A stretch of 64,000 nt of DNA, from NCBI GenBank assembly GCA_958295905.1, contig OY282382.1, positions 3,000,001 through 3,064,000 on the forward strand, read 5' to 3'. A program made the translations under genes and the position numbers. The notes below the pieces were generated by a model. It had not been told where the DNA came from. It saw only the letters and a program-made list of their open reading frames with translations, and made no database searches. Source of the DNA: an uncultured Vicinamibacterales bacterium (GTDB lineage Bacteria; Acidobacteriota; Vicinamibacteria; Vicinamibacterales; UBA8438). Positions 20,859-27,352 of this stretch are shown here, one piece after another. The first letter of the stretch is position 1, and each line of letters starts with the position of its first letter.

Positions 20859-22820
20859 ATGCGTCCCCGCGCAATGTTGTCGATGACCGTGACCGCACTC
20901 GTGGCGGCGACCGCCGCCGCGTTCGCCCAGCAGGGGGCGGTGGACGGCGAGTGGCGAAGCTTCGGAGCCGATCTCGGCAGCACCAAGTACTCGTCGCTCG
21001 ACCAGATCTCGGCCGACAACGTCGGACAGCTCGAGATCGCCTGGCGACGTCCGATCGTCGATCCGTCCTACTTGGAGATGGACCCGAATCTCCGCTTCTC
21101 GAACGTCTCCACCGCCGCCCCCCTCATCGTGGGGGACACCGGCTACGTGCCGAACGCGGTCGGTCTCGTCGAGGCCTACGACGTGACCACCGGCGAGACC
21201 CGCTGGGCCCAGACGCCGTTCGGGGGCCCCGACGACCTGCGCGGCGCCGGCACCCGCGGCGTCGCCTACTGGACCGACGGCGCCGAGGCGCGCATCATCG
21301 TCCAGCGCGGCGAGTATCTCTATGCTCTGCATCCGGACACCGGCGAGCTGTTCCCCGGCTTCGGTGACGGCGGCCGCGTGCATCTCACCATCGGGCTCGC
21401 CGAGGGGGCGCGCTACCGGTGGGGCGGCGCCCCGACGGTGGTGCGGGACGTGATCGTCGTCGGCCAGTCGATGTCCGACACGTTCCAGACCAAGGAAGCG
21501 ATTCGCGGCGACGTGCGGGCGTTCGACGTGCGGACCGGCGCGCTGCGCTGGGTGTTCCACACCGTCCCCCAGGCCGGCGAGTTCGGCACCGACACCTGGA
21601 CCGACGACTCCTGGCAGTACTCGGGGCACGCGCCGGTGTGGTCGCTGTTCAGCGCCGACGAAGAGCTCGGTTACCTCTACATGCCGGTCACCTCGCCGAC
21701 CAACGACATGTACGGCGGTCACCGCGGCGGCGACAACCTGTACGGCCAGAGCATCGTCTGCGTCGACGCCGAGACCGGCGAGCGCATCTGGCACTTCCAG
21801 ACCGTGCACCACGGGCTGTGGGACTACGATCCGCCGGCCGCGCCGATCCTGATGGACATCACCGTCGACGGCCGCGGGATCAAGGCGGTGACGCAGCTCA
21901 CCAAGCAGGCGTTCGCCTTCGTTTTCGATCGGGCTACCGGCGAGCCGGTGTGGCCGATCGAGGAACGGCCGGTGCCGCAGTCGGCGACCCCGGGCGAACT
22001 GACCGCGCTCACCCAGCCGTTCCCGACGAAGCCTCCGGCGTTCGACCGGCAGGGGGCGACCATCGACAACCTGATCGACTTCACCCCCGAGCTGCGCGCC
22101 GAGGCGGTCGCCATCACCGACCGCTACGTCATCGGCCCGATGTTCACGCCGCCGTCGGTCAAGGGCGACGGCCCGAACGACAAGCAGGGGACGATTCAGC
22201 TTCCGGGGTCCCAGGGCGGCTCGGACGTCCAGGGGGGCGCTTTCGACCCCGAGACGGGCATGCTCTACATCCCCTCGATCACGTCGCCGTTCGTGGCCGA
22301 CATCATCGAGGGCAACCCCGACCGCACCAACCTCGCCTATATCAAGGGGAGCCGCCAGTGGATCGGCGGCCCGCGGGGACTGCCGCTCTTCAAGCCGCCC
22401 TACGGGCGCATCACCGCGATCGACATGAACCGCGGCGAGATCGTCTGGATGACCCCCAACGGCGACGGCCCGCGGAACCACCCCGCGATTCGGCACCTCG
22501 ACCTCGGGAAGCTCGGCGTCCCGGGGCGTCCCGCGCCGCTGCTGACGAAGACGCTGCTGTTCATCGGGGAGGGGTCGACGAATCTGCCGGGGGGTGCCCG
22601 CGTGCCCGACGGCATGCCCCCGCAGATCGTGACCAACTACGGCGGCCGCATCTTCCGGGCCTATGACAAGGCCACCGGCGAGGTCGTCTGGGAGACCGAG
22701 CTGCCGGCCGGCACCATCGCACCGCCGGTCACCTATCTGGCGGGCGGGAAGCAGTATGTGCTGGTGGCGTCAGGGGATGTCGAGACCCCCGGCGAAACGC
22801 TGGCTTTCGCCCTGCCCTGA
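20859..22820 (+). CDS. PQQ-dependent dehydrogenase, soluble periplasmic (membrane-GDH-like beta-propeller)
   Basis: A 653-residue exported quinoprotein. A signal peptide ends near AFAQ. The eight-bladed propeller is seen from repeats such as VEAYDVTTGETRWAQ, VRAFDVRTGALRWVFH and IFRAYDKATGEVVWETELPA. HHGLWDYDPPAAPIL is the membrane-glucose-dehydrogenase-type active-site segment with the catalytic Asp; PVTYLAGGKQYVLVA is the usual last strand. It has no cytochrome site and no membrane helices. Expected reaction: oxidation of an alcohol or sugar with PQQ, passing electrons to a separate acceptor. GAAGGAGG lies 7 bases before the ATG. No PQQ synthesis genes are in the window. Confidence 0.9.
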   Translation: MRPRAMLSMTVTALVAATAAAFAQQGAVDGEWRSFGADLGSTKYSSLDQISADNVGQLEIAWRRPIVDPSYLEMDPNLRFSNVSTAAPLIVGDTGYVPNAVGLVEAYDVTTGETRWAQTPFGGPDDLRGAGTRGVAYWTDGAEARIIVQRGEYLYALHPDTGELFPGFGDGGRVHLTIGLAEGARYRWGGAPTVVRDVIVVGQSMSDTFQTKEAIRGDVRAFDVRTGALRWVFHTVPQAGEFGTDTWTDDSWQYSGHAPVWSLFSADEELGYLYMPVTSPTNDMYGGHRGGDNLYGQSIVCVDAETGERIWHFQTVHHGLWDYDPPAAPILMDITVDGRGIKAVTQLTKQAFAFVFDRATGEPVWPIEERPVPQSATPGELTALTQPFPTKPPAFDRQGATIDNLIDFTPELRAEAVAITDRYVIGPMFTPPSVKGDGPNDKQGTIQLPGSQGGSDVQGGAFDPETGMLYIPSITSPFVADIIEGNPDRTNLAYIKGSRQWIGGPRGLPLFKPPYGRITAIDMNRGEIVWMTPNGDGPRNHPAIRHLDLGKLGVPGRPAPLLTKTLLFIGEGSTNLPGGARVPDGMPPQIVTNYGGRIFRAYDKATGEVVWETELPAGTIAPPVTYLAGGKQYVLVASGDVETPGETLAFALP

Positions 22821-22824
22821 CGGC

Positions 22825-22847
22825 CCGGCGGGCGCAGCGCCCGCCGG
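22825..22847 (+). terminator. Perfect 11-bp hairpin after the PQQ gene
   Basis: CCGGCGGGCGC-A-GCGCCCGCCGG starts 5 bp after the stop codon. There is no U-tract, so termination would be of the GC-hairpin type. Confidence 0.55.
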
Positions 22848-22945
22848 TGTCCGCCGGAGCCGAGAGTCCGCGGTGCGGCGGGGCGGTCTCGCGGCTGGCC
22901 AGCGCCCGCTGGTGTCCGCCGGAGCCGAGAGTCCGCGGCGGCGCC
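22837..22945. repeat. 65-bp tandem duplication in the spacer
   Basis: GCGCCCGCYGGTGTCCGCCGG plus AGCCGAGAGTCCGCGG occurs at 22837 and 22902. The first copy overlaps the terminator hairpin. The rest of the spacer to 23060 is GC-rich with no gene seen. Confidence 0.65.
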
Positions 22946-23060
22946 GCGGGCTTCTTGGCCGGCCGTGATGAACCCCCCCGCGTTGCGCCCGAGACCGGGG
23001 AGTGCGCCTGCGGGCCGCAAGAGCGCGCCCGCGGGCGAAGAACACCCCTGCTTGACAAGG

Positions 23061-23140
23061 CGTGACGAGGGAGCACGGCTGGACACATGCGGCCGAGGAA
23101 CAACGCAGTCAGGCAGGATGCCGCCGGTCGAATAAAGCGG
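23061..23140. repeat. Dispersed spacer repeat, family 3, copy 2
   Basis: GCGTGACGAGGGAGCACGGCTGG and TGCCGCCGGTCGAATAAAGCGGCG match the block at 19573-19648. It lies just downstream of the RRM gene (minus strand) and its GCCGC/GCGGC arms could act as that gene's terminator. Confidence 0.4.
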
Positions 23141-23161
23141 CGCCTTCGCCGCGCGGGCCGC

Positions 23162-23533
23162 TTAGAACCCGCGCTTGCGGCCGCGGAGGCCCCGGCGGCT
23201 GCCCTTGGGCTTTGCCGCCCGCCGCCCGAAGTCCATCGGCGGCGGGCCGTCGTCCATGAAGCTCGGTCCCATGGGAGGCCGCGGCGCCCGATCCCGGGCT
23301 TCGCTGACCCGGAGATTCCTGCCGTTGAGTTCCTTGCCGTCCAGTTTCTCGATGGCTTGGGAGACCGACGCGGCATCCCCGAACTCGACGAAGGCGAACC
23401 CCCGCGGCTTCTCGGTGGCGCGGTCTACGGGGAGGAACACCTCCGTGACCTGACCGACCTGTCCGAACAGCGTTTCCAGGTCTGTCTGTGACGTTTCGTA
23501 GCTGAGGTTGCCGACGAAGATGCGTGAAGAAAT
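23162..23533 (-). CDS. RRM-type RNA-binding protein with an apparent ATT start codon
   Basis: A 123-residue cytosolic protein. A single RRM fills residues 4-80: RNP2 IFVGNL at 5-10 and RNP1 RGFAFVEF at 44-51, then a Pro/Gly/Arg-rich tail ending RRGLRGRKRGF. Bacterial RRM proteins of this size bind RNA. In the frame, TGA lies six codons before the ATT at 23533 and no ATG, GTG or TTG occurs before codon 32, which would remove RNP2. GGGAGG stands 6 bases before the ATT, ideal spacing, and the protein would then begin (M)SSRIFVGNL like its relatives. ATT initiation, as known for infC, is therefore likely and suggests translational control. A sequencing error is the alternative. Confidence 0.85.
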   Translation of the reverse strand: MSSRIFVGNLSYETSQTDLETLFGQVGQVTEVFLPVDRATEKPRGFAFVEFGDAASVSQAIEKLDGKELNGRNLRVSEARDRAPRPPMGPSFMDDGPPPMDFGRRAAKPKGSRRGLRGRKRGF

Positions 23534-23765
23534 GGTATGCCTCCCTTGTCAAGCGGCGCCGTTCCAAAATGCGGCACCGCAACCGGTGCCGGCTCCGCTT
23601 CGTCGTTGCGCGGTGTCCGCCGATCGTAACGCCCGTCCTGTTGTGGTGCGGAATGTAACACGAACCGTCCGCTAACATCGGCGGCGCGCGGAACGTGCTC
23701 AGCTCGATTAGCATACCCCGTCACCGCCGCAAACGCAAAGCCGGCCGGGTTCGGCCGGCGGGGTG

Positions 23766-23919
23766 CCGGAGCATCCCACGCTGACTGCGCGTGACGGCCC
23801 GCCCCCCGATTCGAGGGGGCACCACCGTCTTGCCGACCGCCCGGCGCCGCGTGAGACCCACGATGCCGCACGTCCGGAGCCCCGGGACCCGCCACGATGC
23901 CGCCTGCGCACGGCGGTGG
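23766..23919 (+). mobile_element. MITE-like element, family 1, copy C, right end lost
   Basis: Starts CCGGAGCATCCCACGCTGACTGCG and follows the family to CACGGCGGTGG at 23919, where it breaks off into unrelated sequence (GTTGCGATCC). The right terminal repeat is missing and no flanking duplication can be read, so this copy is a fixed, truncated relic. Confidence 0.8.
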
Positions 23920-23994
23920 GTTGCGATCCATTGACAGCCCGCGGGAAGCGGGCCCCTGAGGGTTGCGGAAAGCGGAATTGTAAACGAAACGCGT

Positions 23995-24249
23995 TCAACT
24001 CAGGGCAGGTATGGCCTGTCGGGCACCGTCTTCATCGATTCCGAAATAGCGAATCAGTTGGCGAACGTGTCCGATCTCGATTTCGGGGTTCTCTCGTTTG
24101 CCGTGACGCCCGAGAGGAAGCCCGCGGTAGGTCTTCCCGCCGTAGCGGACCCAGTGCCTGTGCTTCTTCTTCTCGATGCCGGCCCCGGGGGCGCACTCGC
24201 CGAGCATCCGGCGAATGTCCTTGAACCGGACGATGGTGAAGGACGACAC
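23995..24249 (-). CDS. HicA-like mRNA-interferase-type toxin
   Basis: An 84-residue basic protein. FKDIRRMLGECAPGA, then KKHRHWVRYGGKTYRGLPLG and ENPEIEIGHVRQLIRYFGID, gives the alpha-beta-beta-beta-alpha order of the dsRBD-like HicA fold; the His of KKHRHW would match the catalytic His of HicA. The start is GTG at 24249. It lies directly downstream of a HicB-like gene on the same strand, with a 32-bp tandem duplication at the junction. HicA proteins cleave mRNA and are neutralised by HicB. The assignment is by pattern only; catalytic competence is not shown. Confidence 0.55.
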   Translation of the reverse strand: MSSFTIVRFKDIRRMLGECAPGAGIEKKKHRHWVRYGGKTYRGLPLGRHGKRENPEIEIGHVRQLIRYFGIDEDGARQAIPALS

Positions 24250-24292
24250 GCCTATGGCCTGACGATGGTGAAGGACGACACGCCTATGGCCT
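24229..24292. repeat. 32-bp tandem duplication at the toxin start
   Basis: GACGATGGTGAAGGACGACA followed by CGCCTATGGCC appears at 24229 and 24261. It covers the GTG start of the HicA-like gene and creates a second possible start in another frame. The duplication may alter coupling between the two genes. Confidence 0.8.
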
Positions 24293-24296
24293 ATGG

Positions 24297-24797
24297 CTAT
24301 GCCGCGAGGGCGGGCGCCTGGTCGAGCTCGTTGAGGGCCGTCGTGAAGTCAGCCTGTGTCTTCTTGACGATGTCGATGGAGATGGGAGTCTCGGCAGGCA
24401 ATTCGTCCCTATCACGGGCGGCCGTTCCCAAGACGAACCGATGGGCGCGGTGGGCTTCGACAGCCTCCCGCCAAGCGGTTTCCACGGGCGCATTGGCTTG
24501 GTTGATGAAGTGCCGCGTCTGGGCCGCGAAATCATCGAAGCTCGACGCGTCCTCGGCGATGTCGAACAAGACGGCCGTGAACGACTGCCGGAATGCGGCA
24601 TGGGCCTCCGGGATGGTTGCGCCAGAGGCGGCGAGATCGCCCGGGTTGACCCCGTACATCCAGGCGCCCTGCTGCTCCTCGACGGCGAGCACGCGCCCGC
24701 GGACACGCACTTCGGCCAAAAGCCCGGCACCGTAGACGATGTCGCGATACGTGAAGATGAGCGGCAGTTCGACTTGAGAACCGTTCTGCAGAGGCAT
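24297..24797 (-). CDS. HicB-like protein, probable antitoxin partner
   Basis: A 166-residue acidic protein (MPLQNGSQVELPLIFTYRDI). The N-terminal half has beta strands with VRGRVLAVEEQQGAWMYGVN and a HicB-like helix GATIPEAHAAFRQSFTAVLF; the rest is helical and acidic. It precedes the HicA-like gene on the same strand by 47 bp, an antitoxin-toxin order. I could not recognise a DNA-binding motif. The pairing supports the function more than the sequence itself does. Confidence 0.5.
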   Translation of the reverse strand: MPLQNGSQVELPLIFTYRDIVYGAGLLAEVRVRGRVLAVEEQQGAWMYGVNPGDLAASGATIPEAHAAFRQSFTAVLFDIAEDASSFDDFAAQTRHFINQANAPVETAWREAVEAHRAHRFVLGTAARDRDELPAETPISIDIVKKTQADFTTALNELDQAPALAA

Positions 24798-24952
24798 GTT
24801 CCCTCACCGAAGCCGAATCGGCGTCGCGGAGAGTATTGTAGTCAGGGCTTCTGGTCGAGATCAACTGAGATCAACGCACCTGCCCACCCACCCGCTGGGG
24901 GTGAACGTCAGGAAGTGAGGCTCGCAAGTGCTCAAGGCCCTGCGCCATCAAC

Positions 24953-27352
24953 CTACGTGCGCAGGGCGACGGCCGGATCGACCCGCATCGCGCGACGGGC
25001 GGGAACGAGAATCGCCGCCGCGCCGGCCACGCCCAGAATCAGCAGCGACAAGCCGAGCAAGCCGACCACCCCGGTCGTGTCCAGATCTGCGACGCGGCTG
25101 CCAGCCAGCCGCCAGCTTCCGACGGCGATGCCCGCCCCGACCGCGGTCCCCCAAGCCATCGTCAGGCCGCCATCTGCGAGCAGCAGTCGGACCACGTCCC
25201 CCGGCCGGGCGCCGAGCGCCATGCGGATGCCTATCTCCCGCCGGCGCAGTCCGACCAACCGGGCGGCGGCGCCGTACAGGCCCAGCCCGACCAGTACGAG
25301 GCCGACCCCTCCGAACGCTCCGACCCCCGCCGCGGCGCGCCGATCCTGCGACAGCACCGCGTCGACGAAGTCACCCAGCGTCGAGACGTCATGCGTCAGC
25401 ACCTCGGGGTCGAGCGCCCCGATCCGCGCGCGCGCCGCCGACGTCATCGACCTCGGCGGCAGGTCGGTCCGCACCAGCAGATGACTGCTGGGCATGGCGT
25501 CGTCCGGCGGGAAATAGACGATCGGCTCCATGCCCGGCTCCGGACCTCGGTGCGCCCGTTCGGCCTCGCCCACGATGCGGTAGCGGGTGTCGCCCACGAC
25601 TCCGACGACATCGTAGGTTCTGTTGTAGGACACCGACCGGAGACGCTGACCGGTCGGATCGCGGGCCGGCCACAGCATCGCGGCCAGCCGTTGGCTGACG
25701 ACCACCTCGCGTCGCCGGCCCTCCTCCTCCGAGAACCCGCGGCCGTGCACGACAGGGATGCCCAGGGCGCTGAAGAACCGGCGGTCCACGTAGTTCGCGA
25801 GCACCATCCTTGATTCCTGCGAACCGTCGCCGGGCGCCACCTCGTCCTCGAACGTGAAGCTGTCGAACGGCACGAAGAGCGCCCAGCTCGCGACGCGCAC
25901 GCCCGGCAGGGCCGCCATGTCGCGCAACAGGGCGCGCCGGAACGCCGGGGCCGTCGTTTCCGTGTAGCCGGCTTGGCGAAGCGGCAGCCTGACGCTCAGG
26001 ACGCCGGCGGGGTCGAACCCGTGGTCGGTCCGCAGCCGGTGCTGCAGGTTCTGCACGAGCACCAGCGCGCCGCAGACGAGGGCCAGCGACAGGGCGACCT
26101 GGATGGTCAGGAACGTGCGCATCAGCGCAGAGCGGGTCGTCGCCCCGCGCGGGGCGGCCATCGGGTGAATGGCGCCGGCCGTCTCCATCCGGTGAACGCG
26201 GACCGCCGTCAGCCCTCCGGCGGCGACCGGCACCGCGAGGGCCAGCCCCGCCACACCGGCGAACGTCCAGGGACCGGCGGTCAGGGGCGGCACGACGCCC
26301 GCGAGCTCGAGCAGGGCAAGGGCGCCCCGCGCCGCGGCGAGGCTGCACGCGCCGGCCAGCCCGCCCAGCAGCAGGTGCTCGACCGCCTGCTGGCGGGCGA
26401 TGCGCCACCAGCGCGCGCCTTGCATCAGGCGCACCGCCAACTCGCCGCGCCGCGATTCGGCCGCCGCCAGCAGCAGGATGGTGACGTTGGCCAAGGCGAT
26501 CAGGAAGACCGCCGCGACCGCCAGTTGCAGCAGGCCGAGACCCTGTCCGACGGACGTCCGGCGATCCGGTGCCAACGCGGTCCGCGCCAGGGGCGCAACG
26601 TCGATGTTCCGGACGTGGGGATAATCGTTGTCGCGCGGATACTCCGCGATCAGGGCGTCCACGAGCCGGCTCACCGCGATGCGCAGTCCGGCCGGCGGCG
26701 TGTCGTCCCGCCGGGCGAAGACCGTCACCCACGGGGGTGTCCGGTTCTCGAGCAGGTCGGCGAGATCGGCGCGTACCGCGGGCAGGAGCGACAGCGGCGT
26801 CCACACGTCGGGCGCGTAGTCGAGCGTGGTGCCCCGGAAGGCGGCCGGGGCGACGCCGACGACCGTGACCGCCACGTCGTTCAGCCGCAGCGTCCGGCCG
26901 ATGATCGCCGGGTCGGAGGCGTAGGCGGCGCGCCAGAAGCGTTCGCTGATGACCGCCGTGCGGGTATCCGCCGGCTGCGCCGAGTCGGCGTCGAAGGTGC
27001 GGCCCCGGATCGCGGCGACCCCCAGTACGGCGAAGTAGTTGGCGGCCACGAACGCCCCCTGAACGGGTTCGGGCGCGCCCTCCGTCAACGTCATCCGCTG
27101 GTTGAAGAACGCCGCCACGCCTTCCACCCCGTCAAGCCGATCGACGAACGATCGGTAGTTGGGGTACGAGAGGCGGCCGAACGAAACGAGGGTCCGAGGC
27201 CGGTCGACGGCCAGCGGTGAAATCAGCAGGCGCTCGACGCCGGTGAAGACGACGGCGTTACCGGCGATGCCGATGGTGAGCAACAGGACGACGGCGACCG
27301 GGTGCAGCGGCCGCCGCCGCCAGCCGCGCCAGGCGAGGCGCACGTCGGTCAC
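24953..27352 (-). CDS. ADOP-type FtsX-like permease (MacB-like ABC transporter subunit)
   Basis: A 799-residue inner-membrane protein. It has an N-terminal helix after VRLAWRGWRRRPLHP, a large periplasmic MacB_PCD domain (VAANYFAVLGVAAIRGRTFD, VISERFWRAAY), three FtsX-type helices around residues 275-390, a second periplasmic domain (SALGIPVVHGRGFSEEEG, VVSQRLAAMLWPARDPTG) and a C-terminal FtsX set (RREIGIRMALGA). This duplicated layout is the Acidobacterial duplicated orphaned permease (ADOP) family. GTG at 27352 has GGAGGGTGA upstream. The family usually lacks a linked ATPase and none is seen here. Substrate unknown; export of a peptide or lipophilic compound is typical of MacB relatives. 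Confidence 0.9.
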   Translation of the reverse strand: MTDVRLAWRGWRRRPLHPVAVVLLLTIGIAGNAVVFTGVERLLISPLAVDRPRTLVSFGRLSYPNYRSFVDRLDGVEGVAAFFNQRMTLTEGAPEPVQGAFVAANYFAVLGVAAIRGRTFDADSAQPADTRTAVISERFWRAAYASDPAIIGRTLRLNDVAVTVVGVAPAAFRGTTLDYAPDVWTPLSLLPAVRADLADLLENRTPPWVTVFARRDDTPPAGLRIAVSRLVDALIAEYPRDNDYPHVRNIDVAPLARTALAPDRRTSVGQGLGLLQLAVAAVFLIALANVTILLLAAAESRRGELAVRLMQGARWWRIARQQAVEHLLLGGLAGACSLAAARGALALLELAGVVPPLTAGPWTFAGVAGLALAVPVAAGGLTAVRVHRMETAGAIHPMAAPRGATTRSALMRTFLTIQVALSLALVCGALVLVQNLQHRLRTDHGFDPAGVLSVRLPLRQAGYTETTAPAFRRALLRDMAALPGVRVASWALFVPFDSFTFEDEVAPGDGSQESRMVLANYVDRRFFSALGIPVVHGRGFSEEEGRRREVVVSQRLAAMLWPARDPTGQRLRSVSYNRTYDVVGVVGDTRYRIVGEAERAHRGPEPGMEPIVYFPPDDAMPSSHLLVRTDLPPRSMTSAARARIGALDPEVLTHDVSTLGDFVDAVLSQDRRAAAGVGAFGGVGLVLVGLGLYGAAARLVGLRRREIGIRMALGARPGDVVRLLLADGGLTMAWGTAVGAGIAVGSWRLAGSRVADLDTTGVVGLLGLSLLILGVAGAAAILVPARRAMRVDPAVALRT

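Follow-up and report, generated by a model that had tools for sequence, protein, structure and literature searches.

Within the window, by which we mean the whole 64,000-nucleotide stretch of DNA analysed here, lies a gene for an RRM protein whose elements are collected in Table 1. The assembly containing it has a size of 6.3 Mb, and its named relatives are Vicinamibacterales MAGs, within the Acidobacteriota. The stop-to-stop frame that holds the gene (23548..23162, minus strand) reads QGRHTISSRIFVGNLSYETSQTDLETLFGQVGQ... and closes with a stop codon at 23164-23162. After the in-frame TGA, the codons run CAA GGG AGG CAT ACC ATT TCT TCA CGC ATC TTC GTC GGC AAC, and no ATG, GTG or TTG is found between this TGA and the RRM domain of the window gene. 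The sequence-only reading had proposed that the gene starts at this ATT, with GGGAGG at a favorable distance. Both proposals are borne out, the Shine-Dalgarno being extended to AAGGGAGG and the position of the ATT being occupied by ATT or ATC in orthologues and by ATG or GTG in distant tailed relatives.

Table 1. Elements of the RRM protein gene and their positions in the window.
Feature	Position	Strand	Remark
RRM protein gene	23162..23533	-	123 codons + stop, start codon ATT
ATT initiation codon	23531..23533	-	ATT or ATC in every orthologue, two families
Shine-Dalgarno AAGGGAGG	23540..23547	-	6 nt ahead of ATT
In-frame TGA	23549..23551	-	excludes a same-frame start upstream
RRM_1 domain (PF00076)	23309..23521	-	Pfam match and AlphaFold model, domain pLDDT ~90
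Basic C-terminal tail KPKGSRRGLRGRKRGF	23165..23212	-	family hallmark
GTG, first standard in-frame start codon	23438..23440	-	rejected as main start

The ATT-started protein matches the Pfam RRM_1 profile over positions 1-70 of 70 with 80.5 bits (gathering cut-off 20.7), the match beginning four residues after the ATT, at residue 5. In the AlphaFold2 model, strand beta-1 covers residues 4-8. Regarding the C-terminal basic tail, its core is invariant across the family. Bacterial single-RRM proteins (NF058537; Bacteroides RbpB, PMC11697453) are alike in having one RRM with the RNP1/RNP2 core, while the window protein differs from them by its KGSRR basic tail and its near-cognate start; against the NCBIfam model itself (NF058537, Rbp_regulator) it scores 88.5 bits, under the curated cut-off of 100, which places it outside this family. 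The combination of an RRM and a basic tail may point to an RNA- or ribosome-related role.

A second gene copy (L002), carried by a different contig of this assembly, likewise starts with ATT; two codons upstream it has CAC in place of CAT. A sequencing error behind the ATT is ruled out by this copy and by the ATT or ATC present in all aligned orthologues. The PQQ-dehydrogenase and RRM stretch is about 98-100% identical between the two copies (G000:C2:21500-24712 versus window 21809-25021, L001), and they diverge abruptly near window 23600, shortly before the RRM gene begins, a pattern that would be expected if one copy were a strain variant or had been rearranged.

Start codons in the orthologues and in the tailed family

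The comparison of orthologous codons, which the sequence-only reading had itself suggested as a check, gave a uniform answer in two families of the order (f1, to which the window belongs, and f14): each orthologue found has ATT or ATC in the aligned position, followed by TCT, a short S/T-R stretch and [IVL]FVGNL. An upstream start in a different frame, which that reading had named as a possible refutation, was seen in none of the aligned orthologues. The ATC variant occurs in genus g2 and in one g7 member. Upstream, the Shine-Dalgarno reads AGGGAGG, AAGGAG or AGGAGG, the start lying 5-7 nt behind it, and four orthologues (L009, L010, L012 and L014) have a stop codon immediately ahead of this element. 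Some f1 genomes (G005, G007 and G020) lack the tailed gene, the only RRM seen in them being untailed and ATG-started. In the 22 Vicinamibacterales sequences compared, the second codon is always TCT, despite the existence of six serine codons. This second codon and the purine-pyrimidine-pyrimidine at -3 to -1 (window 23528-23536, and orthologues) may aid AUU/AUC initiation.

The wider tailed set was assembled from a scan of named genomes, a phylum-wide survey using a profile built without the first four residues, and surveys centred on one Methylomirabilota genome and one Binatota genome. Its 76 distinct proteins, to be read as a mixed sample of related sequences and not as independent events, start with ATT (41), ATC (17), ATG (14) or GTG (4), and a near-cognate start is hence conserved at the homologous position across many species (58/76). 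All 76 start codons align with one another, four codons ahead of the RNP2 motif, and the ATG and GTG members indicate that the near-cognate start is dispensable for function in some lineages. Untailed RRMs starting at this same position use ATG, TTG or GTG, save three ATT cases, one cut by a contig edge (L015) and two with diverged tails (L131 and L197). The records of near-cognate members are labelled Acidobacteriota, Methylomirabilota/NC10, Binatota, Rokubacteria, HR30 and, for one MAG, Phycisphaera. Because the tailed family is rare beyond Acidobacteriota (5/95 and 3/148 genomes matching at E 1e-30), horizontal transfer is a possible explanation for its occurrence there.

One pattern of the contig scan held 'IS[ST]R' and might have biased the search toward an N-terminal isoleucine. 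This bias is rejected as the source of the result, as the profile built without the first four residues still finds near-cognate starts: of the tailed or tail-derived members beyond the two closest families, inspected by eye, about 12 had a near-cognate start and 15 a standard one. A separate acidobacterial RRM family, with a mostly acidic tail (L125, L127, L133-L137, L140-L142 and L153), keeps a TTG start right behind a TGA stop (e.g., GGAGAGAGTTGATTGGC). For the window RRM gene, the alignments make AUU almost certainly the true start codon.

Start-codon evolution, the leader and IF3

On a family tree built without the start codon, from 137 columns and with many forks open, the near-cognate state amounts to three changes and the ATT/ATC swaps to ten. 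A switch to ATG is found in few lineages, chiefly Thermoanaerobaculia-type members. Since a drifting codon, or selection for strong initiation, would reach ATG in one step and few lineages did so, the near-cognate codon appears to be kept, which suggests that selection holds it as a translational throttle. A Shine-Dalgarno match of at least 5 nt accompanies 95% of the near-cognate members, 33% of the tailed ATG/GTG members and 65% of the untailed ones; in 54/58 near-cognate members its spacing is 5-7 nt, and the three bases preceding the codon are mostly purine-pyrimidine-pyrimidine.

Beyond the Shine-Dalgarno, no conservation of the leader was found in the Vicinamibacterales sequences compared. 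A structured leader or autoregulatory element was considered and rejected, the stability of the predicted folds not exceeding that of shuffled sequences (z -0.11 and -0.65). As no conserved leader structure was found, the start codon itself is likely the control element. A G+C-rich hairpin followed by UUUU, attenuator-like, lies on the minus strand at window 23573-23590, some 25 nt ahead of the Shine-Dalgarno; it was not seen in the same-genus relative L004.

A mechanism can be proposed in which the AUU of the RRM gene would be read by the ordinary initiator fMet-tRNA, the strong and well-placed Shine-Dalgarno enabling initiation at this codon. IF3, by rejecting initiation complexes with a third-position mismatch, would hold synthesis of the RRM protein low, and this synthesis would vary with the amount of IF3 relative to 30S subunits, as happens with infC. 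Expression of the RRM protein is thus expected to be low. We give a probability of roughly 0.8 to the account as a whole, namely that the AUU start is kept as an IF3-sensitive throttle on the RRM protein.

Several precedents bear on this proposal. The AUU start of Escherichia coli infC allows IF3 to limit its own synthesis, as reviewed elsewhere (PMC5472188, PMC9410913). In vitro, AUU initiation read by the CAU anticodon is lowered by IF3 (PMC10158994). In Streptomyces, the conserved GTC start of sigR is repressed by IF3 and is kept in 32/34 species, the other two having GTT (PMC5472188). In Staphylococcus aureus, ribosome profiling has mapped AUU and AUA starts that are conserved and accompanied by an extended Shine-Dalgarno (PMC13009471). 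By analogy with these three organisms, the RRM gene is probably IF3-dependent as well, and sensitivity of its AUU codon to IF3 is a likely outcome.

Among the relatives read, infC starts nearly always with ATC, ATT or ATA, with a single ACG (L059), and the window's own genome has ATC (L060); for distant genomes, infC starts were obtained for 14/18. In L059, the infC of G008, ACG, an even rarer start, occupies the aligned position and ATT lies one codon upstream. Like the RRM gene, infC has a near-cognate start across phyla and a strong Shine-Dalgarno, and within these genomes the two genes share their start class. It differs in two respects: its product is IF3 itself, whereas any control of the RRM gene by IF3 would act on another gene and would not be autoregulation, and the RRM family also has ATG forms in some lineages, infC still starting with ATT in several of the genomes where the RRM gene has switched to ATG. 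The start class shared with infC, and the failure to find any other conserved leader element, fit the initiation-fidelity control through IF3 that the sequence-only reading had put forward as a possibility.

Another related case is sigR, which is likewise distinct from infC and joins a conserved non-standard start codon to an extensive Shine-Dalgarno (PMC5472188); it is a GTC/GTT case established by experiment in one genus, while the RRM family has AUU/AUC in several phyla and is known from its sequences. The staphylococcal genes cvfC1 (AUU) and ccpN (AUA) show the same association of a conserved near-cognate start with a strong, extended Shine-Dalgarno, in other genes and with the support of ribosome profiling and reporters (PMC13009471), whereas our case is built on genome comparison.

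The strongest competing explanation accepts the AUU start as real and takes it for a fixed low-rate setting without dynamic coupling to IF3, as has been proposed for E. coli pcnB. This gene for poly(A) polymerase has an AUU start that limits expression, according to two papers citing it (PMC9410913, PMC13009471); its product is also an RNA-handling protein limited by AUU, but a different one, and its start is described as an expression limit and not as a switch. A strong Shine-Dalgarno next to a weak codon does resemble a tuned constant rate, and the ATG/GTG lineages have a weaker Shine-Dalgarno, as if an equal output were reached by another route. However, an ATG with a weak Shine-Dalgarno would be the simpler route to a low output, yet ATT/ATC has been kept through ten swaps, and IF3 discrimination does act on such codons in the cited systems. 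We consider a fixed rate a serious contender, at somewhat short of even odds, and regulation proper, as opposed to a fixed low rate, to stand evenly balanced.

Other readings of the ATT codon

A standard start further upstream in the same frame, which would make the ATT an internal isoleucine, is very improbable. ATT and ATC are indeed both isoleucine codons, and in 19/58 near-cognate members a standard start lies upstream in frame or the gene reaches a contig edge, single cases being ambiguous, such as L114 with an ATG two codons upstream. Against this, the window gene is blocked by its TGA, a stop codon lies at most 10 codons upstream in 22/58 near-cognate members, and 39/58 have no in-frame ATG, GTG or TTG at all between the preceding stop and the start codon. 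Moreover, a conserved upstream peptide is absent in the aligned relatives and sister lineages have ATG or GTG at the very same position.

We give equally little credence to a prfB-like programmed frameshift, in which translation would pass into this frame from a different-frame ORF further upstream with the help of a Shine-Dalgarno-like element. Such a motif exists, and a few members have an other-frame ATG just upstream; but neither an upstream ORF nor a shift site is conserved, the other frame is not maintained between genera, the codons following ATT/ATC vary across the family (TCT, AGC, TCG, GGA and CCA), and the spacing of the Shine-Dalgarno is that of an initiation site.

The least probable reading is a 92-residue protein starting at the downstream GTG, the first standard in-frame start: as the sequence-only reading had argued in asking for a start upstream of it, this protein, beginning at residue 32, would lack beta-1 (RNP2), alpha-1 and the greater part of beta-2 in the predicted fold, though the sequence upstream of the GTG is highly conserved as protein.

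Significance of the tailed RRM family

With initiation at AUU and IF3 sensitivity as the favored account, the RRM gene belongs to a known kind, that of genes combining a conserved near-cognate start with a strong Shine-Dalgarno, of which this family is a new case of unusual depth. In the open-licence papers searched, we found no prior report of the tailed RRM family or of its start. Bacterial genes known to start with AUU, AUC or AUA are few and, in the literature surveyed, those other than infC have been described for single species or genera. As a practical consequence, gene finders restricted to ATG, GTG and TTG would truncate, extend or miss the RRM protein in many genomes.

The retention of this start across phyla means that a weak start codon can be maintained by selection over very long periods. 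With its ATT, ATC, ATG and GTG variants, this one gene offers a natural experiment on why weak starts persist. A more speculative extension, which we regard as rather unlikely, is that of an ancient initiation-fidelity regulon, in which IF3 would have been tied to the RRM protein through AUU/AUC since the origin of the tailed family, in several phyla. If such a regulon were real, infC and the RRM gene would rise and fall together, and the RRM protein would perhaps act on ribosomes or on mRNA initiation.
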